DNA of 40,838 bases from positions 1-40,838 of the forward strand of contig NZ_JAAKZV010000045.1 of NCBI RefSeq assembly GCF_011044975.1. Direction: 5' to 3'. Origin of the DNA: Streptomyces coryli (lineage in GTDB: Bacteria; Actinomycetota; Actinomycetes; Streptomycetales; Streptomycetaceae). The translations under genes and the position numbers were made by a program. The notes under the pieces were generated by a model. The model searched no databases. It was not told the origin of the DNA and was given only the letters and a program-made list of their open reading frames with translations. Shown here piece by piece: positions 2,213 to 20,797 of the stretch; position 1 is the first letter of the stretch; each line of letters begins with the position of its first letter.

Positions 2213-3244
2213 GTGGGCATCGAGAGCGATCAGCTCGTTTACGACTATCTGAGCAAGGTGGGCGACATCGCGCAGCAGCGCGCGCTGTCGTCGGCGCAGC
2301 GGATGCGGCTGGTCACGGAGTTGCGCGCGAACATCGACCGGGTGCGGGCCGCCGAGGACGCGCAGACCGCGGACCAGGTCAAACGCATCCTCAAGCGCTT
2401 CGGCACCCCCGGCTCGGTGGTGGATTCCGTCGCCGAGGACCCCGGGCGCGGCGCGCCGGAGGTGGCGCCGGAGCCGCAGACCGCCGGGCGTGGCTTCTCG
2501 GTACGGTCCGTAAAGCTGCCCAAGGTCCCCAAGGTGCCCCGCCCGCGCCGGTCCGATCCGGAGCCGTCCGCGGCGCCCCGCAGCACCGCCGCCTCCCCGC
2601 CGCATCTGGCCGGTGAGGACGAGCTCGACCAGAGCGGCGCGGGGCCCGACTGGTGGCGGGTCGAGCCCGGGCCGCTGGACACGATGCCGGGGCAGAGTGT
2701 CGGCGATACGGTCCCGGGCTTCACCGGCGGCATCGAGGTGCCGGAGATCCTCAGGCCGCCGCCGAAGCAGGAGGACGAGCCCGTAAAGCTGCAGAAGCAG
2801 CGGGCCGCGGAGGAGGAAGCGGAGGAGGAGTACGAAGAGGAGGAGGCGGAGGACGACGCCGACGAGGAGTACGGCCGCGCCCGCCCCGTCCTCCACATCC
2901 TCCGCAGCGTCGGCCCGCTCGAACTGGTCGCCATCCTGTGCCTGCTGGCCGGCACCGTCACGGGTGTGTGGCTGGTGCTGGTGATCGGCTGGCTGCTGGT
3001 CTACGGGTCGCGGCGGCTGTCGCGTACCGAGGTGAAGATCGTCGTCTTCGGGGTGCCGGGGACGGTCGCCGTCGGCCTGCTGGTGTGGCTGTGGGGGCGG
3101 GCGGACGGCCGCTGGGGCGAGCCGCTGGCGGAGGACGCCTTCAACGCCGCGCTGACCGACGCCCTCCCGTGGGCGGTACGCGTCGCGGCTGTCGCCTCGG
3201 CCGCGCTGCTGTTCTGGCGGGCGAGACGAGATCAGCTCCGCTGA
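2213..3244 (+). CDS. HAAS-like domain membrane protein
   Basis: 343 residues from GTG at 2213, chosen because AGGGGA sits five bases upstream; the frame stays open much further upstream but only as a shadow of the opposite-strand gene. Residues 5-72 (YDYLSKVGDIAQQRALSS..., RFGTPGSVVDSV) resemble the helical HAAS module found in membrane proteins next to PadR-type regulators. Residues 75-195 are a Pro/charged linker, 199-219 an almost pure Glu/Asp run, and 234-336 hold three or four hydrophobic segments. Likely an integral membrane protein with a cytoplasmic helical head. No catalytic motif was seen and no PadR gene is adjacent, so the role is unknown. It is divergent from the helicase-associated gene and convergent with the siderophore-binding lipoprotein. 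A recoded copy of its last codons lies at 3286-3306. Confidence 0.75.
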   Translation: MGIESDQLVYDYLSKVGDIAQQRALSSAQRMRLVTELRANIDRVRAAEDAQTADQVKRILKRFGTPGSVVDSVAEDPGRGAPEVAPEPQTAGRGFSVRSVKLPKVPKVPRPRRSDPEPSAAPRSTAASPPHLAGEDELDQSGAGPDWWRVEPGPLDTMPGQSVGDTVPGFTGGIEVPEILRPPPKQEDEPVKLQKQRAAEEEAEEEYEEEEAEDDADEEYGRARPVLHILRSVGPLELVAILCLLAGTVTGVWLVLVIGWLLVYGSRRLSRTEVKIVVFGVPGTVAVGLLVWLWGRADGRWGEPLAEDAFNAALTDALPWAVRVAAVASAALLFWRARRDQLR

Positions 3245-3255
3245 GGTGACACGAA

Positions 3256-3284
3256 GGGGTCTGGGGACTTCGCCCCCAGACCCC
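3256..3284. terminator. Hairpin terminator between convergent genes
   Basis: GGGGTCTGGGG (3256-3266) and CCCCAGACCCC (3274-3284) form a perfect 11-bp stem with a seven-base loop. It lies between the + strand membrane protein and the - strand lipoprotein gene and could stop transcription from both sides. It has no T-run, as is usual in Streptomyces. A copy of the membrane protein's tail follows two bases later. Confidence 0.7.
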
Positions 3285-3285
3285 C

Positions 3286-3306
3286 GCGAGGCGACAGCTG
3301 CGCTGA
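3286..3306 (+). pseudogene. Tail echo of the HAAS-like gene (last six codons plus stop)
   Basis: Reads GCG AGG CGA CAG CTG CGC TGA (ARRQLR, stop). The real gene ends GCG AGA CGA GAT CAG CTC CGC TGA (ARRDQLR, stop) at 3221-3244. The copy has two synonymous third-base changes and lacks the Asp codon. It stands 41 bases after the real stop, just past the terminator hairpin, and ends four bases before the stop of the opposite gene. It is short enough to doubt alone; the parallel cases at 16309 and 19319 make it credible. Confidence 0.6.
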
Positions 3307-3309
3307 GCC

Positions 3310-4311
3310 CTACTTCTTCGTCAGGTCCTTCTGCATCTCGTCGAGGATCTTGTTCGCGGCCGTGTAGCCGATGCCCTGCATCCACAGCTCGTCGTTGACG
3401 TGGAAGGCCTTGCCGTCCTTGACGGCCTTCATGTTCTTCCACAGCGGGCTCTTGAGGGCCTTGTCCTCGCCGGACTTCGCGGTGGAGCCGTACGACGTGT
3501 AGAAGATGACGTCCGCGTCCGCCTTGTCGATCTGCTCGGGGCTGACCTCGACGGTGAAGCCGGGGCGCTCGCCCTTGTCGGCCTGCTTGATGATCTCCTC
3601 GGGGCGGCTGACGCCCACGTCCTGCAGGATCGTGCCGATGTAGTTCTTGTCGGCGTAGATGCGGGTGTCCATGCCCTCCATGAAGCGGAGGACGTTGACC
3701 GTGGTGTCCTTCGCCTTCGCGGGGCCGCCGAGCGCCTTGTTGACGCTCTTGACGTGCTTGTCGTAGTCGGCGACGACCGTCTTGGCCTCGTCCTTCTTGC
3801 CGAGCGCCTCGGCGTGCAGCTCGAAGTTCTCCTTCCACGGGGCGCCGACCTCTTCGGCGAACACCGTGGGGGCGATCTCCTTGAGCTGGTCGTAGCGCTG
3901 GCCGTCGCGGAACTTGCTGCTGAGGATCAGGTCGGGCTTGAGGCCCGCGATGGTCTCCAGGTTGGGGTTGCCGATGGTGCCGACGTCCTTGATGCCCTCG
4001 ACCTCGTCCTTGGGGAGGTAGTTGAGGAACTTCGACTCGACGTCGGCGCGGACGGCGCCGACCGGCTTCACGCCGAGGGTGATCGCCGAGTCCAGCTCGG
4101 GCGTGTCGAGGACGACGACGCGCTGCGGGTCGGTGGGCACCTTCACGTCGCCCATCGCGGTCTTGATGGTGTGGGTGGTGGAGTCCTTCTCGCCGGAACC
4201 GGACCCGGACCCGGAGTCCGAGTCGGAGCCGCAGGCCGCGAGCGAGACGGCGGCGGTGACGGCGAGGGCGCCCGCGGCGAGGCCGCGGCGGCGGGCGTTG
4301 GTGCGGAGCAT
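3310..4311 (-). CDS. Iron-siderophore ABC transporter substrate-binding lipoprotein
   Basis: 333 residues from ATG at 4311, with AAAGG nine bases upstream. The N-terminus is a lipoprotein signal ending LAAC with the lipidated Cys at 27, then a Ser/Gly/Asp-rich tether. The body (RVVVLDTPELDSAITLG, VGTIGNPNLETIAGLKPDLI) matches the periplasmic-binding fold of class III Fe-siderophore proteins such as FhuD and FepB. It would catch a ferri-siderophore outside the membrane and hand it to the permease. It is the third gene of the set permease-ATPase-binding protein, 52 bases after the ATPase stop. No convincing DmdR/IdeR iron box was found; AGGCTTACC at 4353-4361 is only half a site. The siderophore cannot be predicted from sequence. 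Confidence 0.92.
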   Translation of the reverse strand: MLRTNARRRGLAAGALAVTAAVSLAACGSDSDSGSGSGSGEKDSTTHTIKTAMGDVKVPTDPQRVVVLDTPELDSAITLGVKPVGAVRADVESKFLNYLPKDEVEGIKDVGTIGNPNLETIAGLKPDLILSSKFRDGQRYDQLKEIAPTVFAEEVGAPWKENFELHAEALGKKDEAKTVVADYDKHVKSVNKALGGPAKAKDTTVNVLRFMEGMDTRIYADKNYIGTILQDVGVSRPEEIIKQADKGERPGFTVEVSPEQIDKADADVIFYTSYGSTAKSGEDKALKSPLWKNMKAVKDGKAFHVNDELWMQGIGYTAANKILDEMQKDLTKK

Positions 4312-4363
4312 CTTTACGGGCCTTTCGAGGGGGACGGGGTACGGCTGTGGGGGGTAAGCCTGG

Positions 4364-5191
4364 TTACTGCGCGTGCCACGGACGGCCGGGGACGACCAGC
4401 GGGCCGCCGGTGACGGGGTCGTCCACGATGACGGCGTCGAGGCCGAAGACCTCGCGCATCAGCTCGGGCGTGACGACCTTGCCGGGCGGACCCTCGGCGA
4501 CGATCCGGCCGGACTTCATCGCCACTAGATGATCGGCATAGCGGGCGGCCTGGTTGAGGTCGTGCAGCACCGCGACGACCGTCCGGCCGTGCGGGCGGCG
4601 CTCGCCGGGGACGGCGAGCTGCCGGATCAGGTCGAGGACCTCGACCTGGTGGGAGATGTCGAGGTAGGTCGTCGGCTCGTCGAGGAGCAGCAGGTCGGTC
4701 TCCTGCGCGAGCGCCATCGCGATCCAGACCCGCTGCCGCTGGCCGCCGGACAGCTCGTCGACGGGGCGCTCGGCCAGTTCGGTGATGTCCGTATGCGCCA
4801 TGGCGGTGGTCACGGCCGCCTCGTCCGCCTCCGACCACTGCTGCCACCAGCTCTGATGCGGCTGCCGGCCGCGGCCCACCAGGTCGCCGACGGTGATCGC
4901 CTCGGGCGCGGTCGGGGACTGCGGGAGCAGGCCGACGGTGCGGGCGATCTGCTTGGTGGGGAGCTTCGCCAGCTCCCGGCCGTCGAGCAGCACGGACCCG
5001 CCGCGCGGCTTGAGCAGCCGGCCGAGGGCGCGGAGGAGGGTGGACTTGCCGCAGCCGTTGGGGCCGACGACGACGGTGACCTTGCCGTCCGGGATGTCGA
5101 CGTCGAGGCTCTCGACGACGACGCGTTCGTCGTACGCGAGGGTGAGGGCGCGGGCCGCGAGGCGGCTGGCCGGTGTGTCGATGGTGGTCAT
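4364..5191 (-). CDS. Iron-siderophore ABC transporter ATP-binding protein (FepC-like)
   Basis: 275 residues. Start ATG at 5191 overlaps the permease stop as ATGA, the usual mark of translational coupling; the frame is open further upstream but that part is a shadow of the permease. Visible motifs are Walker [10 protein letters not shown] (43-51), Q-loop Q91, signature LSGGQ (147-151), Walker B LLLLDE (167-172) and the H-loop His210. These are the full nucleotide-binding set of FepC/FhuC-type ATPases. It would power import by the adjacent permease from the cytoplasmic side. Confidence 0.93.
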
Positions 5192-6264
5192 GCCTTGCCT
5201 CCGGTACGGCTCCTGACGATGAGCCACATCAGGTACGGCGCCCCGATCGCCGCCGTCAGCACGCCGACGGGCAGCTCGGTGGGCGCGAAGAGCTTGCGCG
5301 CGAGGATGTCGGCCGCGGTCACGATCAGCGCCCCCATCAGCGCCGACGACAGCAGCGGGATCTGTGCCGTCCGGGTCAGCCGGCGGGCGATCTGCGGGGC
5401 GAGCAGCGCGACGAAGTCCACGGGCCCGGCGGCGCCGGTGGCGACGGAGGCGAGGACGACGCCGAGGAGGACGAGGCCGAGGCGGGTGCGTTGCAGGCGT
5501 ACGCCCAGGGCCGTCGCGGTGTCGTCGTCGAGCGAGACGGTGCGCTGGGCGCGGGCCGCCCAGAACAGGAAGGGGAGGGCGATCAGCAGCGTCCACAGCA
5601 GCGGCCTAGACGCGTCCCAGCCGCGGCCGTTGAGCGACCCGGTCAGCCACACCTTGGCCTGCTGCGCCATCAGCGCGTCGCCCTTGGTGAGGAAGAGCTG
5701 GGTGACGGACTTCAGCGCGACGGCGAAGCCGATGCCGATGAGCACGAACCGCGCGGCGTGCAGCCCACCACGCCAGGCGAAGACGTAGACGAGCGCGGCG
5801 GCGACGAGCCCGCCGGTGACGGAGAGCCAGGGCAGGACGGCGTACGAGCCGATGCCGTACGTCATCGCGCCGACGGTGAGCGCGGAGGCGCCCTGGGAGA
5901 CGCCGATGATGTCCGGGCTGGCGAGGGGGTTGCGGGCGACGGTCTGGATGAGCGCACCGGCGATCCCGAAGGCGAGGCCGACGAGGAGGCCGGTGACGAG
6001 GCGGGGGAGACGGAGGGTGCCGACGACCAGCTCGTTGGGATTGTCCTGGCCGAGGACGACCTGCACGACGTCGCCCGGGGCGACCCAGGTCTCGCCGACG
6101 GAGAGGGAGAGGACGGAGACGGCGGCGGTGAGGACGGCGAGGGTGAGGGCGACGGCCGTGGCGCGGCGGTGCACGAGGAAGGAGGCCTGGCCGCGCCGTG
6201 CGAGGCCGTAACCGGCGGGGCGAGCGGCTGCAGACTTGGCGGCGGTGAGGGGCGTGCCGGTCAC
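5188..6264 (-). CDS. Iron-siderophore ABC transporter permease (FecCD family, FepG-like)
   Basis: 358 residues from GTG at 6264; a GGGGG stretch eight bases upstream serves as ribosome site, and the longer frame back to 6300 lacks one. About ten hydrophobic segments and the family signature around [18 protein letters not shown] are present, with [10 protein letters not shown]-type text ([13 protein letters not shown]) in the cytoplasmic coupling region. The sequence looks like the second (FepG-type) permease of a FepD/FepG pair. No FepD-type gene is present: the gene upstream is nusA, 56 bases away. The protein may work as a homodimer, use a partner encoded elsewhere, or be left over from a broken operon. 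Confidence 0.9.
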
Positions 6265-6320
6265 CGGGCCACCCCCTTTACCTTCGCGCACACACAGCAA
6301 CTGGCGGGTGGGTGGGCCCG
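6265..6320 (-). repeat. nusA/permease junction with imperfect inverted repeat
   Basis: The 56 bases between the nusA stop and the permease start. CGGGCCCACCC (6310-6320, minus sense) can pair with GGGTGGCCCG (6265-6274) with one bulged base. Folding would cover the bases just before the permease GTG and might limit its translation. No -10/-35 pair is obvious, so the permease may depend on read-through from nusA. This is also the likely point where two gene blocks were joined. Confidence 0.35.
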
Positions 6321-7307
6321 TCAGTCGTCAGGCTGCTCCGTGTCCGGGCGGATGTCGATGCGCCAGCCCGTCAGCCGCGCCGCGAGCCGCGCGTTCTGGC
6401 CTTCCTTGCCGATCGCCAGCGACAGCTGATAGTCCGGCACCGTCACCCGCGCCGACCGCGCCGCCTCGTCCACGACCTCGACCTTGCTGACCCGCGCCGG
6501 AGACAGGGCATTCGCCACCAGCTCCGCCGGCTCGTCCGACCAGTCGACGATGTCGATCTTCTCGCCGCCCAGCTCCGCCATGACATTGCGCACACGGCCG
6601 CCCATCGGCCCGATGCACGCGCCCTTGGCGTTCAGCCCGGACCGCGTCGAGCGCACCGCGATCTTCGTACGGTGACCGGCCTCCCGCGCGATCGCGGAGA
6701 TCTCCACGGAGCCGTCCGCGATCTCCGGCACCTCCAGCGCGAAGAGCTTCTTCACCAGATTCGGGTGCGTACGGGACAGCGTCACCGACGGCCCCCGCAC
6801 CCCCTTCGCCACCCGCACCACATACGTGCGCAGCCGCGCCCCGTGCTTGTAGTCCTCGCCGGGGACCTGCTCCTGCACCGGCAGGATCGCCTCGAGCTTG
6901 CCGATGTCGACCAGGACGTTGTTCGGGTCCCGGCCCTGCTGGACGACGCCCATGACGACGTCGCCCTCGCGGCCCGCGTACTCGCCGAAGGTGACTTCCT
7001 CCTCGGCGTCGCGCAGCCGCTGCAGGATGACCTGCTTGGCGGTGGTCGCCGCGATGCGGCCGAAGCCCGACGGCGTGTCGTCGAACTCCTGGGGCTCCTG
7101 CCCCTCCTCCAGGTCGTCCGCGTCTTCCTTCGCCCACACCGTCACATGGCCGGTCTCGCGGTTCAGCTCCACGCGGGCACGCTGGCGGCTGCCGTCCGTG
7201 CGGTGGTAGGCGATCAGCAGCGCGGACTCGATGGCCTCGACGAGCAGGTCGAAGGAGATCTCCTTCTCCCGCACCAGACCGCGCAGCGCGCTCATGTCGA
7301 TGTCCAC
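6321..7307 (-). CDS. nusA: Transcription termination/antitermination factor NusA
   Basis: 328 residues. GTG at 7307 follows the rimP stop by two bases and has AAGGGG seven bases upstream; an ATG four codons in (7295) is an alternative. The N-terminal RNA polymerase-binding domain spans about 1-105, S1 about 113-167, and KH1 and KH2 follow with GACIGPMGG (229-237) and AIGKEGQ (299-305). There is no C-terminal acidic repeat, as usual outside Proteobacteria. NusA binds RNA polymerase and nascent RNA and modulates pausing and termination. The gene is complete and lies in the standard rimP-nusA pair. In actinobacteria ylxR and infB normally come next; here a siderophore permease does. Confidence 0.97.
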
Positions 7308-7309
7308 GG

Positions 7310-7816
7310 CTACGCCCCTTCTTCCTCGGTGTCCTTCGGGGACTTGCGGTTGAACTCCAGCTCGACACGCGCCTTCGCGATCTCGTCGAAGGCCACCCGG
7401 CGGGCCTTGGGCTTGCGCCCCTTCACACCCGGGATCTCCAGATCCAGACCGTCGTCGTCCACCGCGGTGATACGGGCGACGAGCTCCTCGCCCTCGTGCA
7501 GCTGCAGCTTGATCAGCCGGCCGGTGGCGCGGTGGTAGTGGCGGAGCTCGGTGAGCGGCCGCTCGGCTCCGGGGGACGTCACCTCGAGCACGTAGGGCGC
7601 GTCGCCCAGGGGCTCCTTCGCGTCCAGCACCTCGGAGATCGCCCGGCTCAGCTCGGCGCAGGCGTCCAGCTCCACCCCGTCGTCCGAGTCGACCACCACG
7701 CGCAGGACCCGGCGCTTCCCGGCGGGTGTCACCTCGATCTCCTCGAGATCGAGGGAGCGCTCGTGCACGAGCGGTTCAAGCAGTTCGCGCAGCCTCTCGC
7801 TCTGGGTGGTGCTCAT
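7310..7816 (-). CDS. rimP: Ribosome maturation factor RimP
   Basis: 168 residues from ATG at 7816, with AGGAG about eight bases upstream. The N-terminal alpha/beta domain carries [15 protein letters not shown], the family hallmark; the C-terminal SH3-like barrel starts near [16 protein letters not shown], and the tail is acidic. RimP helps late assembly of the 30S subunit. It is first in the rimP-nusA operon and divergent from the lipoprotein gene. The 127-base divergent region holds candidate promoters for both sides; TTGACC around 7892-7897 (minus sense) could be the rimP -35. Confidence 0.97.
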
Positions 7817-7931
7817 CCGGGTGACTCCTCGGCCGCGTGTGCTGTTGTCGTGGGTGTGTGCGGCTTTGCTGCCGCAGGGTGCGTGTCAGGTCAAAGGGTA
7901 TCCGCTCCACGACCTGGGCGGCGCCCACAGG

Positions 7932-7937
7932 TACGCT
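7932..7937 (+). promoter_or_regulatory. -10 box of a probable leaderless promoter (TACGCT)
   Basis: TACGCT ends six bases before GTG at 7944 and there is no ribosome binding site, so transcription probably starts at the GTG. A -35 match is weak. Confidence 0.45.
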
Positions 7938-7943
7938 CGGGTC

Positions 7944-8465
7944 GTGCTGATCAAGGTTTCCGCCCGCAGGAGCGTGCTCAAGGCCGCGGTGGCCGCGGGC
8001 GCTGTTGGGGTCGTCGGCTGCTCGTCGCCCGGCGAGCGCGCCGCCGCGCCCAGTCCCTCCGCGGAGCTGCGGATGCGCAAGCAGGCCGCGCGGGCGTCCG
8101 GCGAGCTGATGCGGCGTTACGACGCGACGGTCGAGGCGCACCCGGACCTGGCCGAGCCGCTCATCCCGCTGCGCAACGACGTCGCGGCGCATGTGACGGC
8201 GTTCGCGGGGAAGGGCAGGGACCGGAAGACGGCGTCACCGTCCGGCAAACCCGGCAAGGCCTCCCCGTCGCCGACGCCCGCGGCGCCCGACGTACCCGAC
8301 GACCCGAAGAAGGCCCTGGCCCGGCTCGCCGAGGCCGAGCGGAGCACCGCCGACGCGCACACCGAGGCGCTGGCCGAGGCGCCCGGCGAGCTGGCCCGGC
8401 TGCTGGCCTCGGTGGCCGCGGCCGGCGCGGGGCACGCCTACGTGCTGGCGGAGGTGGACGCGTGA
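7944..8465 (+). CDS. Tat-type lipoprotein, unknown function
   Basis: 173 residues from GTG at 7944. The N-terminus MLIKVSARRSVLKAAVAAGA has a twin-arginine-like ARRSVLK followed by a hydrophobic run and a lipobox VVGC with Cys26, so a Tat-exported lipoprotein is likely. The mature part is helical and rich in Ala/Glu, interrupted near the middle by a Ser/Pro/Lys linker. The stop overlaps the next start as GTGA, so it is translationally coupled to the DUF4439 gene, and the two products probably act together at the cell surface. Function unknown. The longer upstream frame lacks a signal and is not used. Confidence 0.8.
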   Translation: MLIKVSARRSVLKAAVAAGAVGVVGCSSPGERAAAPSPSAELRMRKQAARASGELMRRYDATVEAHPDLAEPLIPLRNDVAAHVTAFAGKGRDRKTASPSGKPGKASPSPTPAAPDVPDDPKKALARLAEAERSTADAHTEALAEAPGELARLLASVAAAGAGHAYVLAEVDA

Positions 8466-9061
8466 GCGGCGACGAGCTGACGGCCCGGAGCGCGGCGGAG
8501 GCCGCGCTGCGCGGGGAACATGCCGCGGTGTACGGGTACGGCGTGGTCGGCGCCCGGATCGACGGCGACCGGCAGGAGGAGGCCCGTACCGCCTACGACG
8601 CGCACCGCGCGCGGCGGGACGCGATGGCCCGGGTGGTACGCGATCTCGGCGGGAAGCCGAAGCCCGCGGCGGCGGCGTACGCGCTGCCGTTCGCGGTGCC
8701 CGACGCCGCGGCCGCGGTGCGCCTCGCCGCCGAGCTGGAGGACCGGCTCGCCGGGGTCTACGCCGATCTGGTGCGGGCCGGCGACGGGAATGTGCGCGCG
8801 GACGCCGCGGCGGCGCTGCGCGAAGCGGCGGTCCGGGCGGTGCGGTGGCGCGGGGCGGGCGTAGCCTTCCCGGGGCTGGCGGAGCGCGCGCAGGGCGCCG
8901 CGGCGCCGCCCTCGCGGGGGTCGCGGGGCGGCGGCGACGGTACGGATCAGGGATCAGGACCGGATTCGGAGTACGACCCGAGTGGGTCCGAGTCGCAGCC
9001 GGGTACAGAGCCCGGAGCGGGCGAGTGGTCGGAGCCCGGGGCCGGCGCCGATCCGGCGTGA
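8462..9061 (+). CDS. DUF4439 ferritin-like domain protein
   Basis: 199 residues from GTG at 8462, overlapping the lipoprotein stop by four bases. Residues 5-140 are a helical bundle typical of DUF4439 (RSAAEAALRGEHAAVYGYGVVGARI, RTAYDAHRARRDAM). Glu, His and Tyr occur near ferritin-like positions, but a full di-iron ligand set cannot be confirmed by eye. After about 150 the chain turns into a low-complexity Gly/Ser/Glu/Pro tail of about 50 residues with no domain. In mycobacteria a DUF4439 gene also lies close to rimP/nusA and proS, so the position is ancient. Role unknown. Confidence 0.85.
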   Translation: MSGDELTARSAAEAALRGEHAAVYGYGVVGARIDGDRQEEARTAYDAHRARRDAMARVVRDLGGKPKPAAAAYALPFAVPDAAAAVRLAAELEDRLAGVYADLVRAGDGNVRADAAAALREAAVRAVRWRGAGVAFPGLAERAQGAAAPPSRGSRGGGDGTDQGSGPDSEYDPSGSESQPGTEPGAGEWSEPGAGADPA

Positions 9062-9100
9062 CCGGCAGACCAGCAGCAGGTACGGCGGGATCGTGAGGCA

Positions 9101-10081
9101 GTGGCAGAAGAAGCGTCGTCAAGGGCATCCGCGGGGCGGCCGACGCCCGGTCTGAAGCCGCCGCAGCGCCTCGAGCGCGCGGTGGCGGAGGCGGCGGGGC
9201 CCGGCGCCGCGGCCGCGCAGGAGTGGCTCAGCGGGCTGCCGGCGCTGGCTTCCGGGTATCTCCAGAAGTGGCAGCTCACCCCCGAGCGGGTGCAGACGCC
9301 CGGGGGACGCAGCTCGCTCGTGGTGCTGGTCCGGCAGGAGGACGGCACGCCCGCCGCACTGAAGCTCACCCGGCCTGCTGCCGGGCACGAGCAGGAGCAT
9401 GCCGCGCTCGCCCGCTGGGACGGGCGGGCGGCGGTGCGGCTGCTGCGGTCGGTGCCGGCGGACGGGGTGCTGCTGCTGGAGCGGCTGCGGCCGGATGTCA
9501 GCCTGCGGTCGCTGCCGGAGGCGAAGGCGATGCTGGAGGCGGCGAACACGCTGCAGCGGCTGTGGCTGGAACCGGAGCCGGGGGACGCGGACTTCGCGAC
9601 CGTGACCGCCCGCACGGACCGGCAGGCGGAGCTGCTGCGGCGGTGGCGGGAGGGGCCGGATGCCGGGGCCGAGGTGGTGCTGATCGACGAGGCGCTGGCG
9701 CACCAGGAGGCGCTGACCGCGGCGGCGGAGGGCGACTCCGCCGGGCCCGTATCGCTGCTGCACGGGGACTATCACCAGGGGCAGGTGCTGGCCGCGGAGC
9801 GGGCGCCGTGGCTGGCGATCGATCCGCGGCCGGTGGTGGGTGAGCGGGCGTACGACCTGGCGTGGCTGGTGCGGGACCGGCTGGACACGCTGATCGGGTC
9901 GCCGGGGGCGGCGGCCGCGGCGCGGCGGCGGGTCGGGCGGCTTTCGGATCTGCTGGAGGTGGACCGGGAGCGGCTGCGGGCGTGGACGCAGTTCCGGTGC
10001 GTGGCGGCGGGGGTGGCCGCGCTCGCGGACCGGGACCGGCGGGGCGGGGAGCTGCTGCTGGAATTCGCCGGGTTGCTGTAA
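9101..10081 (+). CDS. Protein-kinase-fold phosphotransferase (APH/maltokinase-like)
   Basis: 326 residues from GTG at 9101, 39 bases after the DUF4439 stop. The kinase-like core shows AALKLTRPAAGHEQEH (ATP-binding Lys and Glu region), the catalytic loop LLHGDYHQGQ (His221, Asp223) and the metal-binding AIDPRP (Asp241). The usual Asn of the HGDxxxxN loop is Gln228, as in maltokinase-like proteins, which have HGDxHxGQ. Annotation pipelines tend to call it aminoglycoside/hydroxyurea phosphotransferase (APH_6_hur). The substrate is unknown and resistance should not be assumed. It sits in a + strand series with lipoprotein, DUF4439 and PBP genes. Confidence 0.8.
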   Translation: MAEEASSRASAGRPTPGLKPPQRLERAVAEAAGPGAAAAQEWLSGLPALASGYLQKWQLTPERVQTPGGRSSLVVLVRQEDGTPAALKLTRPAAGHEQEHAALARWDGRAAVRLLRSVPADGVLLLERLRPDVSLRSLPEAKAMLEAANTLQRLWLEPEPGDADFATVTARTDRQAELLRRWREGPDAGAEVVLIDEALAHQEALTAAAEGDSAGPVSLLHGDYHQGQVLAAERAPWLAIDPRPVVGERAYDLAWLVRDRLDTLIGSPGAAAAARRRVGRLSDLLEVDRERLRAWTQFRCVAAGVAALADRDRRGGELLLEFAGLL

Positions 10082-10106
10082 GGGCGGTCAACTAGGCTTC
10101 GTCGGC

Positions 10107-11951: not shown

Positions 11952-11968
11952 GGCCTGGCTCTAAGGTC

Positions 11969-14488
11969 TCAGGCGGCTTCCGGGAGCTCCTCCGCGGGCG
12001 CCTCCTCGTGGCGTACGGACAGCTCCAGCTCGTTGTCCTTGAGGTCGGCGACGATCGTGTCGCCGGGCTCCGCCTCGCCGCTCAGCAGGATGGACGCGAT
12101 CCGGTTGTCCAGCTCCGTCTGGAGCGTGCGGCGGAGCGGCCGGGCGCCGAACTCGGGCTGGTGGCCGAGGGCGACCAGGCGCTTCTTCGCGGCCTCGGTG
12201 ACCTCGAGCTCCAGGCCCTGGGCCCGGACCCGGCGGCGGCTCTTCTCCAGCAGCAGGTCGATGATGGTCGACAACTCGCCCTCCCCGAGGCCGTGGAAGA
12301 TGATGATCTCGTCGATGCGGTTGAGGAATTCGGGGAGGAAGCGGCCGCGCAGATCCTCCATCAACTCGTCCTTGATCTCGCTCACATCGCCGTGGTGCGC
12401 GAGGATCCGCTGCGCCCCGATGTTGGACGTCATGATCACGACGGTGTTGCGGAAGTCGACCGTACGCCCCTGGGCATCGGTCAGCCGCCCGTCGTCCAGG
12501 ACCTGCAGGAGGGCCGAGAAGACGTCCGGGTGCGCCTTCTCCACCTCGTCGAAGAGCAGCACGCTGTACGGCTGCCGGCGGACCTTCTCGGTCAGCTGGC
12601 CGGCCTCCTCGTGCCCCACGTATCCGGGCGGCGCACCCACCAGCCGCGACACGGTGTGCTTCTCCTGGAACTCGCTCATGTCGAACCGGATCATCCTGCT
12701 CTCGTCCCCGAAGAGCAGCTCTGCCAGGGCCTTCGCCAGCTCGGTCTTGCCGACGCCGGTGGGCCCGAGGAAGAGGAAGGAGCCGACGGGCCGGTTCGGA
12801 TCGCCCATCCCGGCCCGCCCGCGGCGCACCGCCTCGGAGACCGCCGTGACCGCCTCCTCCTGCCCCACCACCCGCGAGTGCAGCGCCTCTTCGAGCTTCA
12901 GCAGCTTGTCCTTCTCGCTGGCCGTCAGCTGCGCTACGGGGATGCCGGTGCGCCGGGAGAGGATGTCCGCGATATCCGCGGCGGTCACCGCCATCACGCC
13001 CTCGCGCCGCTCCTCGACCCCCGCCAGCTCCGCCTCGGCGTCGGCGATCTGCCGCTTGAGCTCGCTCGCCTTCGCGTAGTCCTCGGCGGTGACCGCCTCG
13101 TCCTTCTCCCGGGTCAGCTTGGCGAGTTTGTCCTCGCGGTCGGTGACCGCGCTGGACTTGCCGAGTGACTTCAGCCGCACCCGGGCGCCCGCCTGGTCGA
13201 TCAGGTCGATGGCCTTGTCGGGCAGGAAGCGGTCGGAGACGTAGCGGTCGGAGAGCTCGGCGGCCGCGGTGAGCGCCTCGTCGGCGAAGCGGACCTGGTG
13301 GTGGGCCTCGTACGCGTCCCGCAGGCCCTCCAGGATCTGGATGGTCTCCTCGACGCTCGGCTCCGGCACCATGACCGGCTGGAAGCGGCGCTCCAGGGCC
13401 GGGTCCTTCTCGATGTGCCTGCGGTACTCGTCGATCGTGGTGGCGCCGACGACGTGCAGCTCGCCGCGGGCGAGGGCGGGCTTGAGCATGTTCCCCGCGT
13501 CCATGGCGGAGTCGCCGCCGCTGCCGGCGCCGACCACCGTGTGCAGCTCGTCGATGAAGAGGATCGTGTCCTCGGCGGCCTTCACCTCGTCGATGACGTT
13601 CTTCAGCCGCTCCTCGAACTCGCCGCGGTACTTCGACCCGGCGACCAGACCCGCCAGGTCGAGGCCGATCACCCGCTTGTCCTCGAGGGTCTTGGGCACC
13701 TCACCGGCGACGATCCGCTGCGCGAGCCCCTCGACGATGGCGGTCTTGCCGACGCCGGGCTCGCCGATCAGCACGGGATTGTTCTTCGACCTGCGCGACA
13801 GGATCTCGACGGTCTGCTCGATCTCCTCGGCGCGGCCCACGACCGGGTCGAGCTTGCCGGACTTGGCCTCCTCGGTGAGGTCGCGGCCGTATTCGTCGAG
13901 GGTCGGGGTCTCGCTGTTCTCGGGGCGGGACGACGGCACGCCCTCCGCCCGCGACGCCTTGTCGGTGGCCTTGGAGAGCTTCGCGGGATCGGTCCCGTAC
14001 GCCTCCAGCAGCCGGCCCGCGCCGGAGGCCGGGTCGTCGAGGAGGGCGCCGAGGATGTGCTCGGGCCCGATGTACGACACGCCCGCCGCCTGGGACCTGG
14101 CGTGGGCGGCGATCAGCACCCGCTTCGCCGCCGGCGTCAGGCCCGGCTCGGACGACGGTGTGCCGCCCTCCCCGGGCAGCACCCGCTCGATGTCGGCGCC
14201 GAGCTGCTCGGGGTCGGCGCCCGCCTGCCGCAGCACGCTGCGCGCCGGCTCCACCTGGGTGCACGCCCACAGCAGATGCTCGGTGTCCAGGTCCTCGCTG
14301 CCGTCCTGCTGCGCCCGCTGCTGCGCGGTGCCGATCAGCTCGCGCGCGGAGTCGGTGAGCAGCCGCCCGATCGGCACCCGCTGCACCTGGGGCGGGGCGG
14401 AGCCCGGGGCCATCCCGAAGAAGCGGTTGAGGATCTCCGAGAACGGGTCCTGGGAGCCGTAGGAGCCGAAGGGCGGCATCGAGGTCAT
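11969..14488 (-). CDS. Clp/Hsp100 ATPase with ClpC-like layout but no ClpP-docking loop
   Basis: 839 residues. ATG at 14488 has GAGG only two bases upstream; the ATG three codons later (14479) has better spacing and may be the real start. After a Gly/Pro/Phe-rich head come a double Clp N domain (about 40-175), D1 with Walker A GEPGVGKT (242-249) and Walker B around 310-314, a short UVR-like middle segment (about 453-485), and D2 with GPTGVGKT (575-582) and LLFDE (644-648). The order resembles ClpC rather than ClpB, whose middle domain is much longer. Between TSNIGA (687-692) and FLNRID (721-726) there is no LGF/IGF loop of the kind that docks ClpP. It may therefore be a disaggregase or work with an adaptor. 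Confidence 0.92.
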
Positions 14489-14560
14489 GGCCTCAGGGAA
14501 ACAAGGCCGCCACCCGGCCGCAAAAGCTGCGCTGCGACCGGGTTAACAGCCCGCCGCAGG

Positions 14561-16264
<1,704 letters not shown>

Positions 16265-16308
16265 GCCCGGGAGGTTAGCCGGAGGCGGGCCCGCGCCGGA
16301 AATGCGTA

Positions 16309-16365
16309 TCACCGGCGGAGCGGCAGCTCGGCTCCCATCACCACGTATGGGGCGGGTGCCGACGG
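16309..16365 (-). pseudogene. Tail echo of the upstream GNAT gene (18 codons plus stop)
   Basis: In minus sense this encodes [18 protein letters not shown] and TGA. The real GNAT gene ends with the same residues plus Ala and TGA at 16414-16473. Four of 18 codons differ: GCG/GCA, CCT/CCA, CTG/CTC, CGG/CGC. All are synonymous and at the third base. The copy has no start or ribosome site and lies between the GNAT terminator element and proS. Divergence limited to silent sites means the copy came from DNA that evolved as coding sequence, not from free drift of a dead duplicate. Confidence 0.88.
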
Positions 16366-16410
16366 GCTGCATCTCCCGGGGGCCGACCCCCGGACCCCCA
16401 GCCGATCCCG
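16366..16410 (-). repeat. Short hairpin element between GNAT gene and its tail echo
   Basis: 45 bases, minus sense: starts CGGGATCG, has G/C stem CCGGGGG (16387-16393) and CCCCCGG (16376-16382) with a four-base loop, and ends GGGAGATGCAGC directly before the echo. It shares both ends and the hairpin core with the element at 19382-19480. It probably also serves as the terminator of the GNAT gene. Confidence 0.75.
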
Positions 16411-16413
16411 GGC

Positions 16414-16950
16414 TCATGCCCGCCGCAGCGGCAGCTCGGCTCCCATCACCACGTAAGGGGCGGGCGCCGACGGGAAGATCACTCTGCGTGCCAGGTCCTG
16501 GTAGCCCAGCTGCCAGTACAGCCGGCGGGCCGGGCTCTCCACGTCGATCGCCGACAGGATCGACTTGGGTTCGACGGCCGTGTCGGTGATCTCGGTGATC
16601 AGCCGGCGGCCGATCCCGCGCTTCTGGAACGCCGGGTGGACATGCAGCTCGGTGATGACGAAGGCGTCGTCGAGCCACCGCTCGCTGCCGGTTTCGCGCA
16701 GATACGGCTGCACCACCGTCGACCACCAATAGACCCGGTTGTTCGGCATCCCGTAGACGAACCCGGCCAGCCGCCCCTCGGCGGTCGTGGCGCCGAGCGC
16801 CCGCACCCCCGCATTGGCGGCATGCCGCAGGACGACATGCCGGCGCACGCCGATCTCGTCGTCACTGAGACCGAAGGCGAGCGCCTGCACGGCCAAGGCG
16901 TCATCGACGCGGGCAGCGAGGTCCAGGGGGCCGATGACGACGTCGTCCAT
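16414..16950 (-). CDS. GNAT family N-acetyltransferase
   Basis: 178 residues from ATG at 16950. The GNAT fold is visible: [20 protein letters not shown] holds the acetyl-CoA motif (QKRGIG, residues about 112-117) and [19 protein letters not shown] is the C-terminal motif B. The substrate is unknown. An AGGAG lies 15 bases upstream of the ATG, too far for ideal use, so the start is slightly uncertain. The gene is followed by a hairpin element and a recoded copy of its own last 18 codons, then proS. Confidence 0.88.
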
Positions 16951-17033
16951 GGCCGCGCATGCTATCTCCTCGCGGAGCGCTGCGGCGGCGCACCGCCCGG
17001 GTCGATGGGACGGCGGCCAAAGACCGCCCTGAA

Positions 17034-17092
17034 TAAGCCCGTCCGGCGCTTGAGGACTTCGCGCGAAGCGCGAATGCCGCGCCGCAGGCGCG
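17034..17092. repeat. Streptomyces-type intergenic repeat with small palindromes
   Basis: GTCCGGCGCTTGAGGAC (17041-17057) matches a short sequence that I know as widespread between Streptomyces genes. It is followed by the palindrome TTCGCGCGAA (17058-17067) and the stem CGCGCC/GGCGCG (17078-17083, 17087-17092). It fills most of the 163-base gap between the two GNAT genes and is likely a transcription terminator or REP-like element. Confidence 0.55.
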
Positions 17093-17113
17093 AACCCGGG
17101 GCGGCCGCGAAAG

Positions 17114-17962
17114 CTAGAAAAGCACGCTCATGAAAGCGCCGACTTCGCGGAAGCCCACGCGCCGGTACGCGGCCCGCGCCGCCGTGTTGTAGTCGTTGAC
17201 GTAGAGGCTCACCACCGGTGCCACCTCGCGCAGCGCGAAGCGCAGGACCGCGGTCAGGCCTGTCTCCGAGAGGCCGCGGCCGCGGTGTTCTGGGGCCACC
17301 CAGACGCCCTGGATCTGGCAGGCGTGGGAGGTCGCGGCGCCGATCTCCGCCTTGAAGACGACCTGGCCGTTCTCGACCCGGGCGAAGGAGCGGCCGGAGC
17401 CCACCAGCTCGGCGACCCGGGCCTGGTACATCAGCCCGCCGTCGCCCGCCATCGGCGAGATCCCGACCTCCTCGGTGAACATCGCCACGCACGCCGGCAT
17501 GATCATGTCCATCTCGTCCTTGCGGACCCGACGTACCAGCGGATCGGGCCGGACGCCGGCCGGCATCTCCGTGGCCACCATCAGCGGCTGGTGCCCCCGC
17601 ACCTCCCGCGCCGGACCCCAGCTCGGCTCCAGCAGCGACCACAGGTCGGTGGTGGGCCCGACAGGACCGACGATCGACGAGCACCGCCGCCCCGCCCGCA
17701 GCGCCCGCTCCGCGAATCCCCTGACCGCCGCCGGCACCGCGCACACCGGCACCAGGTTCGCCCCGGCGTAGCACAGCGACTGCAGCTTGCCCTCGGCGTC
17801 GTACCAGCCCCACATCTCGCCGCCGAGCCGCCACGGGTCCAGACCCGCGACCTCCACCCGCGCGGCGACGAAGGCGTTCGCGACCGGGTCGCGGTCGAGC
17901 ACCGCGCGCGCGGCATCGAGGTCGCCGGGTTCCAGCACCCGGGTCTCACCGGTCGTCAACAC
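17114..17962 (-). CDS. GNAT family N-acetyltransferase with DUF4081 N-terminal half
   Basis: 282 residues from GTG at 17962, chosen because TACAGT ends six bases upstream; the frame extends to 18055 but without start signals. The N-terminal half (VLEPGDLDAARAVLDRDPVANAFVAARVE) is the DUF4081 region of actinobacterial GNATs. The C-terminal half carries IQGVWVAPEHRGRGLSETGL (acetyl-CoA loop) and SLYVNDYNTAARAAYRRVGF. Mycobacteria have such a gene (Rv2867c) just downstream of gcpE/ispG, the same arrangement as here. Substrate unknown; the conserved linkage suggests a basic function. Confidence 0.9.
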   Translation of the reverse strand: MLTTGETRVLEPGDLDAARAVLDRDPVANAFVAARVEVAGLDPWRLGGEMWGWYDAEGKLQSLCYAGANLVPVCAVPAAVRGFAERALRAGRRCSSIVGPVGPTTDLWSLLEPSWGPAREVRGHQPLMVATEMPAGVRPDPLVRRVRKDEMDMIMPACVAMFTEEVGISPMAGDGGLMYQARVAELVGSGRSFARVENGQVVFKAEIGAATSHACQIQGVWVAPEHRGRGLSETGLTAVLRFALREVAPVVSLYVNDYNTAARAAYRRVGFREVGAFMSVLF

Positions 17963-17968
17963 AGCCGC

Positions 17969-17974
17969 ACTGTA
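17969..17974 (-). promoter_or_regulatory. -10 box of a probable leaderless promoter (TACAGT)
   Basis: TACAGT (minus sense) ends six bases before GTG at 17962. No ribosome binding site precedes the start. It lies in the 52-base gap after ispG, so the GNAT gene has its own promoter even though it is in line with ispG. Confidence 0.5.
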
Positions 17975-18014
17975 CCCGCACGAAGGGTGTACGCGCGCGT
18001 CGCAACGGGGCCGC

Positions 18015-19169
<1,155 letters not shown>

Positions 19170-19227
19170 CTGGCGGCAACCCCAAGCATTCGTTTTCATC
19201 GCCCTGGGCGAGCGGGCTCAGCCTTCG

Positions 19228-19233
19228 AGGTTA
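19228..19233 (-). promoter_or_regulatory. Candidate -10 box for ispG (TAACCT)
   Basis: TAACCT (minus sense) lies 58 bases before the ispG ATG in the 311-base rseP-ispG gap. The -35 match is poor. The rest of 19170-19318 shows no gene or clear structure. Confidence 0.35.
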
Positions 19234-19318
19234 CGCCACGCCGATGACCGGAAGCACACGGCGCCATCAACATCACCGGATCTGTGGACGAACTGCGACA
19301 GTCACCGCCGTACCCCGG

Positions 19319-19381
19319 CTAACCGGTGAGCTTGACCGGATTGACCAGGTCCGCAACGAGCACCAGCAGCGTGAAGCAGAT
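19319..19381 (-). pseudogene. Tail echo of rseP (20 codons plus stop)
   Basis: In minus sense this reads [20 protein letters not shown] and TAG, exactly the C-terminus of RseP, whose real version is at 19481-19543. Five of 20 codons differ (ATT/ATC, CTG/CTC, GTG/GTT, GTA/GTC, ACG/ACC); all are silent third-base changes. There is no start codon or ribosome site, and the match stops at the stop codon. It lies between the element at 19382-19480 and the ispG promoter region. Confidence 0.92.
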
Positions 19382-19480
19382 GCTGCATTCTCCCGGGGGA
19401 TGACCCCCGGACCCCCAGCCGGACAAGCAGGTCGGCCGGGGTGCCCGGTGCGGATATCGCGGGGGAATCAGGCGATCCCG
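19382..19480 (-). repeat. Hairpin element between rseP and its tail echo
   Basis: 99 bases in minus sense, beginning CGGGATCG directly at the rseP stop and ending GGGAGAATGCAGC directly at the echo. The core hairpin is CCGGGGG/CCCCCGG (19404-19410, 19393-19399) with a four-base loop. The core and both ends match the 45-base element at 16366-16410, which looks like an internally deleted form. The extra 5' part has a second imperfect stem (CGGGATCGC with GCGATATCCG). Confidence 0.75.
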
Positions 19481-20797
19481 CTAACCCGTGAGCTTTACCG
19501 GATTGACCAGGTCCGCCACCAGCACCAGCAGCGTGAAGCAAATGAAGATTCCGGCCACCACGTAAGCCACCGGCATCAGCTTGGCGACGTCGAAGGGGCC
19601 GGGGTCCGGGCGGCGGAAGATCTTGGCTGCCTGGCGCCTGATCGACTCCCACAGGGCGCCCGCGATGTGGCCGCCGTCGAGTGGGAGCAGCGGGAGCATG
19701 TTGAAGAGGAAGAGCGACAGGTTGAAGCCGGCGACCAGCAGCAGCATGGAGGCCACCCGCTGCTCCGGCGGGATGTCCAGGTTCAGCACCTCGCCGCCGA
19801 CCCGGGCCGCGCCGACGACACCGACCGGGGAGTCGTCCTTGCGCTCGCCGCCGTTGAAGGCGGCGTCCCACAGGTCGGGGATCTTGGACGGCAGCGCGAT
19901 CAGCGCGTCCACGCCGTTGGCGACCATGTCGCCCATCCGCTCGACCGACTGGCCGAAGTCCTGCTGGACGACACCACGAGCAGGCGTGAAGCCGAGGAAG
20001 CCGGCGTCGACGTACTCGCCGTCGACGTACGAGCCGCGGCCGTCGGTCTTGGCGACCTGGTTCTTGATCAGGGTGGGGTGCAGGTCGACGAGCTTGCCGT
20101 CGCGCTCGACGGTGACGGTGGCCTTGCCGATGGTGCCGCGGATGTCGGACTGCAGGTCATCCCAGTCACCGACCTTGTTGCCGTTGAAGGCGACGATCCG
20201 GTCGCCCTTCTGCAGCCCCGCGGCCTTGGCGGGCGCGGCCGGGTCCTTGCCGGTGCACTTGCGGTCGGGGTCCTTGGAGACCACGGACTGCTGCAGCACG
20301 CAGTCGGAGACGGCGCCGACGGTGGTGGTCTGGGTCGTGATGCCGAAGGTCATCATGACGCCCATGAAGACCACGACCGCGAGGATCAGGTTCATGAACG
20401 GGCCCGCCAACATCACGATGACCCGCTTCCACGGGGCCCGGGTGTAGAAGAGCCTGGTCTCGTCGCCGGGCTTCAGCTCCTCGTACGCCGCCGCCCGGGC
20501 ATCCTCGATCATCCCGCGGAACGGGGACGTGGACCGGGCCTGCATCTTCCCGTCCTTGCCGGGCGGGAACATGCCGATCATGCGGATGTAGCCGCCGAGC
20601 GGGATCGCCTTGATGCCGTACTCGGTGTCGCCCTTCCTCCGGGAGAAGATCGTCGGCCCGAAGCCGACCATGTACTGCGGCACCCGGATGCCGAACATCT
20701 TGGCCGTGGAGAGGTGGCCGAGCTCGTGCCAGGCGATGGAGACCAGCAGGCCCACGGCGAAGACGACGATGCCGAGGATCGTCATGAAGGTGGTCAT
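19481..20797 (-). CDS. rseP: RseP/Rip1-type site-2 zinc metalloprotease
   Basis: 438 residues from ATG at 20797, overlapping the dxr stop as ATGA. HELGH (His24, Glu25, His28) in the first membrane helix is the zinc site; the third ligand region LPLDGG has Asp374. A PDZ domain lies between ([19 protein letters not shown]). About four membrane helices are seen. Rip1/RseP cuts anti-sigma factors inside the membrane during envelope stress. The order dxr-rseP-ispG is the same as dxr-rip1-gcpE in M. tuberculosis. The last helix is encoded twice: the terminal 20 codons recur, recoded, at 19319-19381. Confidence 0.96.

Follow-up and report, generated by a model that had tools for sequence, protein, structure and literature searches.

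Two genes in a 40,838-nucleotide stretch of Streptomyces coryli DNA (contig NZ_JAAKZV010000045.1, positions 1 to 40,838; here called the window), rseP and a gene for a GNAT protein, are each followed by a hairpin and then by a copy of their own last codons. These tail echoes are real and part of a widespread Streptomyces phenomenon. The hairpin, together with the approximately 10 nucleotides (nt) that follow it, forms the right end of a small repeated element, which measures about 93 bp when complete and is too short to contain a gene. Sites in which no left end is recognisable are often laid out as GTTC|tail-stop-[right element part]|tail-native downstream, with the right tip CAG(C/T) of the element joined to the base that follows a TTC-like triplet. 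Within one genome the two tails stay similar to each other; arrays are found as well, and many sites are empty. Taken together, the element, its breakpoints and the concerted evolution of the tails are conclusions that we hold with considerable confidence.

All features of the rseP and GNAT loci lie on the minus strand. The functional 3' end of rseP, which is the first repeat copy, occupies positions 19481..19543 (20 codons and TAG) and adjoins a CTTC motif at 19544..19547. Behind it lies a full-length element of about 93 bp (19382..19475) with the hairpin GGGGGTCCGGGGGTCATCCCCCGGG and the right tip AGAATGCAGC, followed by the echo (19319..19381; 20 codons and TAG) and then by the region upstream of ispG. 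A covariance model of the element, R1, trained on 12 copies from sites without an echo, matched this copy over model positions 1-94 of 94 with 89.2 bits, the copy being outside the training set; its left tip (about 7 nt) is unrecognisable by eye. Five of the 20 codons differ between echo and gene, all of them synonymously. The window belongs to a Streptomyces lineage; the best match to its rseP is from S. aculeolatus (84%). By eye, none of 80 relatives shows an echo in the first 140 bases behind rseP (L074 provided fewer bases and L051 was masked), and none of the relatives' rseP genes that were included in a set of 623 genes scored for one. At the GNAT gene, the functional 3' end (19 codons and TGA) lies at 16414..16473, the adjoining CTTC at 16474..16477, and a 5'-truncated element, consisting of a spacer, the hairpin GGGGGTCCGGGGGTCGGCCCCCGGG and the right tip AGATGCAGC, at 16366..16413. 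R1 matches positions 16366-16441 here (model 39-94 of 94, 30 bits), of which everything from 16414 on is gene tail. The echo (16309..16365) has 18 codons and TGA, lacks the last Ala codon, and differs from the gene in four codons, again only synonymously. S. abikoensis (L029) carries an echo behind what is apparently the same GNAT gene.

An earlier note on this DNA had described three genes with echoes and had assigned their three hairpins to one family. The description is exact for rseP and GNAT, and the 11 third-position changes that it counted across the three echoes are indeed all synonymous (5 + 4 + 2). The third case, on the plus strand behind a HAAS-like gene (3256..3306), has a different hairpin, GGGGTCTGGGG-ACTTCG-CCCCCAGACCCC, and a possible echo of six codons and a stop (3286-3306), in which one codon is missing, as correctly noted for this echo and that of GNAT, and two codons differ, both synonymously. 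We do not accept it as a member of the family because the window scan gave no match of its hairpin to the element model and no TTC precedes the repeat. The repeat scores of rseP and GNAT are 49 and 43, at a level (at least 25) for which mismatched tail/downstream pairs lead us to expect 0.7 cases among 623 genes. The HAAS-like score of 14 is reached by 0.13% of 20000 mismatched pairs, and by 10 of 640 actual genes including the HAAS-like gene itself, most of the others being short repeats immediately adjacent to each other; that this echo goes beyond chance is suggestive only. The motif GGGGTCYGGGG, with one mismatch allowed, occurs 11 times in the window against 7.6 expected, and as 13 of 100 shuffles also reach 11, there is no clear enrichment.

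Across the genus, the hairpin motif is present in 87 of 295 Streptomyces genomes; the reversed pattern gave zero matches in the same 295. The genomes of the motif search, six sites from a separate search and the window together yielded 145 distinct hairpin sites (158 before duplicates with identical repeats were removed; sites with less than 150 bases upstream or 100 downstream were left out). Comparison of the 400 bases before with the 300 bases after each hairpin revealed a direct repeat with a score of at least 20 at 88 of the 145 sites, compared with about 5% of 4000 mismatched pairs, a control that contains orthologous loci and thus sets an upper bound. The genome-wide excess of tail matches over controls that the earlier note proposed to look for therefore exists. 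Merging left 129 sites or arrays, of which 71 show an echo when the first unit is compared with the last, and 14 are arrays of two or three units. In the unbiased set of 623 genes, four scored at least 18: three are tail-end echoes (window rseP, window GNAT and the GNAT gene of L029), all with the same hairpin between the copies, and in the fourth, L039, the repeat lies away from the gene end. Chance repeats or assembly artefacts might be invoked, given that some of the sources are draft assemblies and that the HAAS-like case, taken singly, may be due to chance. The score excess, the breakpoints described below and the many sites that sit in single contigs of 7.6 to 11.4 Mb refute them for the whole family, and we give this explanation next to no credence. 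Two unusual sites were seen. In L212, near position 14000 (L162), the hairpin and the echo of a permease tail stand behind an FHA-like gene and the permease body is missing, owing to a rearrangement or an assembly join. L151 has lost its echo along with part of the tip, and its hairpin, by eye, is fused in frame to the start of a permease.

Sites without an echo define the complete unit, which runs from the left tip ACTCAGGTTCGCCTCGCGATGT through GCCGACCTGCTTTTC and the hairpin to the tip AAGATGCAGC, and measures 92-94 bp in most copies. The consensus ends are ACTCAGG and CAGC, and the left tip of complete copies stands behind TTC or a similar T-rich triplet. The hairpin described in the earlier note is part of this mobile-looking element of about 93 bp. 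An alignment of 12 sequences predicted the right hairpin, with most pairs kept, and no left hairpin in the consensus fold. R1 matches 89 of 121 Streptomyces genomes, with 30 matches in G289 and 21 in G121. In a sample of 148 genomes from the class it matches 18, and all matches of at least 40 bits in that sample come from genomes that were also in the genus search. A strict pattern for the left end was found in only 3 of 295 genomes and was discarded as too strict. The units of arrays are spaced by about 80-330 bp, which leaves no room for a gene, and the 55-kb list of open reading frames (ORFs) around the tRNA-Lys repeats of G178 held nothing convincing as an autonomous, cargo-bearing version, no family search having been run there. 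No Rfam family scored above its gathering threshold in the window, L337, L097 or L138. A Guanidine-II match at L083 (1500-1546), on the strand opposite the hairpin and with a loop that reads ACGA, is probably due to chance. A plasmid or phage origin was considered and dropped, since a blastn search with a 52-nt element query (low-complexity filter on) found no match in either collection.

Some copies are placed or built differently. At 14 sites without an echo (L081, L094, L100, L103, L105 and others), the hairpin sits in frame close to the N-terminus of a protein that we take, by eye, to be MoaC-like, apparently as an inherited in-frame insertion. At L289 and L296, a complete element stands just before genes, one of them presumably uppS, and by eye its left tip supplies a GTG start and a Shine-Dalgarno-like GAGG on the other strand. 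Element variants at L335 and L334 (G098, G277) have a different, longer right hairpin.

The joints of the echo sites are well defined, and the motif at which the repeat starts had been missed before. Among 40 tail strings, the three bases before the repeat in the gene are T (30/40), T (35/40) and C (36/40), mostly with C or G ahead, and when the strings were grouped by hand into about 25 gene ends, 16 had an exact TTC. On the echo side, the repeat starts after A-x-x-x-(C/T)-(A/G)-CAG-(C/T, once A), about 10 nt behind the hairpin; CAG is found in 29 of the 30 tail strings with a measured box (10 of the 40 have no measurable box, L083 was unmappable and left out, in L143 and L150 the breakpoint is preceded by element sequence, and L180 is off by one base). 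TTC in Streptomyces gene ends is in phase 0 in 781 of 878 cases. It is almost always a codon, therefore, and the in-phase position of the insertions needs no further cause; codon usage accounts for it, and phase-0 insertion as a mechanism was rejected. The copied stretch varies in length from about 30 to 290 bp, which led us to drop a CRISPR-like reading of the TTC before it. In six cases (L101, L106, L147, L167, L171, L195) the homology extends 7-33 nt past the stop codon.

Targets named by eye include ABC transporter subunits, permeases and an ABC-F protein. tRNA-Lys genes are also hit, with the cut in the anticodon loop. G178 (contig C34, approximately 170-196 kb; L281-L283) has three tRNA-Lys(CTT) genes, separated by 10.6 and 14.2 kb; behind each stand the hairpin and a repeat of that gene's 3' part, and at one of the three there are two units. 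L293 and L199 show head echoes: a reverse-strand gene has its opening codons, the start codon among them, on both sides of the hairpin (for L199 this is judged from the start of its repeat); the echo is therefore a copy of a gene end and not only of a tail. The precise joint, the restored tail, the cut in the tRNA anticodon loop and the tandem arrays would all suit a site-specific integrase, tail, hairpin and tip forming a tiny integrative circle with the tail as attachment site, as for islands in tRNA genes. We consider this very unlikely: a single hairpin is combined with about 25 different gene ends, which have little in common beyond the triplet before the joint, the units carry no cargo, and complete copies rarely come with a duplication. 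Neither an integrase nor cargo was found between the two putative attachment sites, the array spacings being too short for them; the search did not extend to integrase genes elsewhere in the genomes.

Echoes are associated with the loss of the left end. The left-end motif occurs at 10 of 43 sites without an echo and at 2 of 88 echo sites (Fisher p = 0.0002; the sites are not independent, and the 14 moaC-type sites were set aside). In a comparison of 72 copies, some of which had also served to train R1, an echo is present in 1 of 33 copies scoring at least 62 bits (window rseP) and in 6 of 39 below, one of which (L406) sits just at the threshold; this difference points the same way as the motif counts and is not significant alone (p = 0.12). 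The left flank of the 33 high-scoring copies is TTC in 12, TTT, GTT, GTC or ATC in 14, and another triplet in 7. An echo is lacking in 32 of the 33, duplications below the reach of the echo test not being excluded. On these counts, complete copies mostly appear to insert cleanly, and echoes go with a lost left end. We propose that, at such sites, the right end of the element alone was joined to the cut target, that synthesis from the free 3' end at TTC copied the gene tail, and that repair then joined the tail copy to the broken element. Insertions that cut the gene short would be lost, so the survivors would be those with a stop codon. Recombination between the two tails may later have rewritten the echo from the selected copy, producing the synonymous bias. 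The whole chain, from an insertion joined at its right end only through copying of the gene end to concerted evolution, is the account that we favour with moderate confidence; the half-joined origin, judged on its own, is put forward tentatively and may well prove wrong. A simple long target duplication that includes the whole spacer was dropped for sites like L097, where the spacer is unlike the sequence downstream of the echo.

The main rival is rescue by an intact allele. Here a complete element inserts at (C/G)TTC in a gene end, and the intact allele of a relative later restores that end, recombining homologously on the left side and joining illegitimately within the element on the right, leaving the displaced old end as the echo. 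Rescue would explain the lost left ends, the native position of the echo in L097, synonymous differences present from birth, and the mosaic L138. Under this reading, each of about 25 gene ends would have had to go through two rare steps, and the tail pairs of L097, L155 and L158 are identical over 48-76 bp and have unrelated spacers. We also noticed no disrupted gene with a complete copy still awaiting rescue, the complete copies not having been tested for disruption. On balance, rescue strikes us as unlikely, though a serious candidate.

As to the synonymous changes, the differences in 59 gene echoes (773 codons) fall on codon positions 1, 2 and 3 in the ratio 16/7/43, and 47 of 62 changed codons are synonymous (38 of 53 in the 57 echoes from genomes other than that of the window). 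For comparison, the synonymous share expected under random change is 28%, and a rough estimate for the case that only one copy is constrained is 46%. Many echoes are identical to the gene. (The script gave L150 and L175 a wrong frame and aligned L143 to the inner unit; all three were left in.) The earlier note's view that the hairpin-linked echoes behave like coding sequence thus stands; its third-position rule is not exclusive elsewhere, 15 non-synonymous codons having been found outside the window. The differences are not adenine-directed, and a diversity-generating retroelement, for which no search was run, was dropped from consideration.

Within a genome the two tails resemble each other more than either resembles its counterpart in another genome. 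In the MEKL family (4 sites) they differ at 1.0 positions within a genome and at 15-16 of 54 between genomes, and in the ABC family (17 sites) at 0.9 within and 2.9-3.5 of 27 between, the spacers of the latter being 44% identical. Exchange between the copies would give the synonymous signal of the echoes. Of the L097 family, 30 loci were read from 392 searched genomes, and 9 are occupied (one has kept the echo and lost the hairpin) and 21 empty; occupied loci rank high in part because the query contained the insertion. The echo is followed by the native downstream sequence, and private changes are common to both copies. A tree built from the upstream kilobase requires 6 changes for the occupied state, at least 5 of them forced by well-supported branches. 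At L138, three tails are identical over about 190 bp, after which the last one differs in the manner of another allele; the upstream type outscores the copy in the native position against all 29 relatives compared, whose orthology is unchecked. Among the three causes suggested in the earlier note, repeated excision or exchange between the tails fits best, in view of the concerted evolution, the arrays and the empty sites. Incoming orthologous alleles are not needed in general, with L138 as the one case that allows them. An element carrying a replacement 3' end is correct only in part: the right part of the element is constant, and the tail belongs to the host gene.

Where the stop codon of the gene overlaps a start codon (ATGA or GTGA), the echo is in the frame of that start at 42 of 44 sites, which gives it the look of a micro-ORF's translated end. 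In 35 of 36 single-copy sites the stop of this micro-ORF is precisely that of the echo, and the residues before the echo are G(R/W)GSGGRPPG in most. The spacer is 26 nt long in all 17 ABC sites, and its length leaves a remainder of 2 on division by 3 in 7 of 8 NIRR and 7 of 7 LNTT sites. Many of these frame-keeping sites are probably inherited copies of one insertion and not independent. The 15 gene echoes without start overlap are spread over the three frames as 7/5/3, and a separate frame test of single-copy sites without overlap gave 5 of 11. The open interval from stop codon to echo was rejected as evidence, since the echo frame is open in 58 of 59 cases and the other frames in 50 and 57. 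The simplest reading of the frame counts would be translational coupling to the next gene. In our account, the inserted stretch may be translated, ending with the echo, and in operons may hand ribosomes on to the next gene. Alternatively, its function might keep the echo in place, with the insertion forming a coupled micro-ORF or a terminator and the echo leaving the next gene with an intact ribosome binding site and start. The frame kept at 42 of 44 overlap sites and the constant spacers of the ABC, NIRR and LNTT families speak for such upkeep. It concerns maintenance only, is compatible with the other explanations, and gives no account of origin; no frame is preferred among the 15 echoes without overlap, many sites of the L097 family are empty, and the window copies have no in-frame coupled start. 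We regard it as rather improbable.

Several observations weigh against the origin and fate that we propose. Many of the hairpin sites are orthologous and so not independent. The near-complete rseP copy of the window has an echo, so the loss at the left end need not be large. In L097, L155 and L158, which look recent, the repeat stops at the stop codon or within 2 nt of it, which is sharper than random repair would give. The occupied state of L097 is hardly clustered on the tree (42 of 500 shuffles are as low), and its 6 changes, as expected for repeated precise loss or repeated gain, may reflect recurrent insertion. L138 appears to fit allele exchange better than simple copying. As regards translation, the GNAT echo of the window does not share the frame of its overlapping ATG, and for the rseP echo there is no start that overlaps. 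Finally, searches for Y1 and Y2 transposases and for reverse transcriptases found no enzyme that could be tied to the element.

No hairpin was found by regular-expression search at 26 Y1_Tnp loci. Among 14 hairpin-rich genomes, 6 have a Y1_Tnp match, as do 2 of 10 others; G289, with its 30 model matches, has none. With this patchy presence, no hairpin near Y1 loci, and a hairpin foot (GCTG/GCCG) and tip (CAGC/CGGC) that do not covary, a Y1 transposase was rejected as the mover. A Y2 transposase was found in 0 of 24 genomes, the control search being equally silent. RVT_1 is present in 7 of 12 copy-rich genomes and 4 of 12 genomes without a model match, and absent from G289; these counts show no clear link to copy number, and a reverse transcriptase was likewise rejected. 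Since no Y1, Y2 or reverse transcriptase gene is tied to the element, we claim no family membership.

In its architecture, the element resembles miniature elements of IS200/IS605-derived or rolling-circle type. IS200/IS605-derived miniature elements have a hairpin about 10 nt from the right tip and insert 3' of a short T-rich motif. The Streptomyces element shares the right hairpin about 10 nt from the tip, the T-rich target and the apparent lack of duplication at most complete copies; it differs in having no conserved left hairpin in the consensus fold, no Y1 gene found near its hairpins, and duplications at broken copies. LINE-type target-primed insertion is characterised by an exact 3' end, 5' truncation and target duplications of variable length, all of which recur here, in a bacterial host, with no dedicated reverse transcriptase found and with complete copies mostly free of duplication. 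Rickettsia palindromic elements lie inside reading frames and can be read in frame with the genes; the present element is likewise palindromic and can be read in frame, and unlike them it lies between two copies of a gene end. The target of IS91 is GTTC. A hairpin near the 3' end is a feature shared with Helitrons, as is the GTTC target with IS91. According to PMC4778049, Helraiser has a hairpin 11 nt before its 3' end, and truncated and read-through products are reported. Those products alter the 3' side, whereas the Streptomyces element is exact at its right tip and loses its left end. According to PMC3116915 and PMC3733652, REP and REPIN sequences, which are associated with RAYT transposases, are short palindromic non-autonomous repeats, mostly extragenic, and in ordered REPIN clusters (PMC3116915) the tandemly repeated unit takes in flanking sequence; Rickettsia palindromic elements are named in PMC3733652, and the main text of both papers does not mention Streptomyces. 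Short palindromic repeats and a repeated flank are common ground; in place of the free flank of REPINs, a gene end is copied from a TTC-like triplet. The Streptomyces element has neither a GTAG tag nor a doublet structure; no RAYT-type end tag, GTAG or CGTC, is seen in its consensus ends. It is a long shot that this gene-less element of about 93 nt is a bacterial counterpart of short retroelements or half-joined elements, with an exact 3' end at (C/G)TTC, 5' truncation and target copying, whose broken copies rebuild the gene end that they hit, the rebuilt stretch then being domesticated as a translated micro-ORF that keeps pace with the gene over long periods.

No earlier description was found in a literature search of listings, abstract starts and passages, whose scope did not extend to preprints and most subscription journals; absence is unproven. 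Our results mean that a mobile element can enter the end of a gene without breaking it, leaving a marked scar whose two halves evolve together. They point to an enzyme that joins a hairpin end to TTC, and small in-frame ORFs that lie between coupled genes may have their explanation here. They also provide, in a genus that produces antibiotics, dozens of natural cases in which the exchange between short repeats can be measured.

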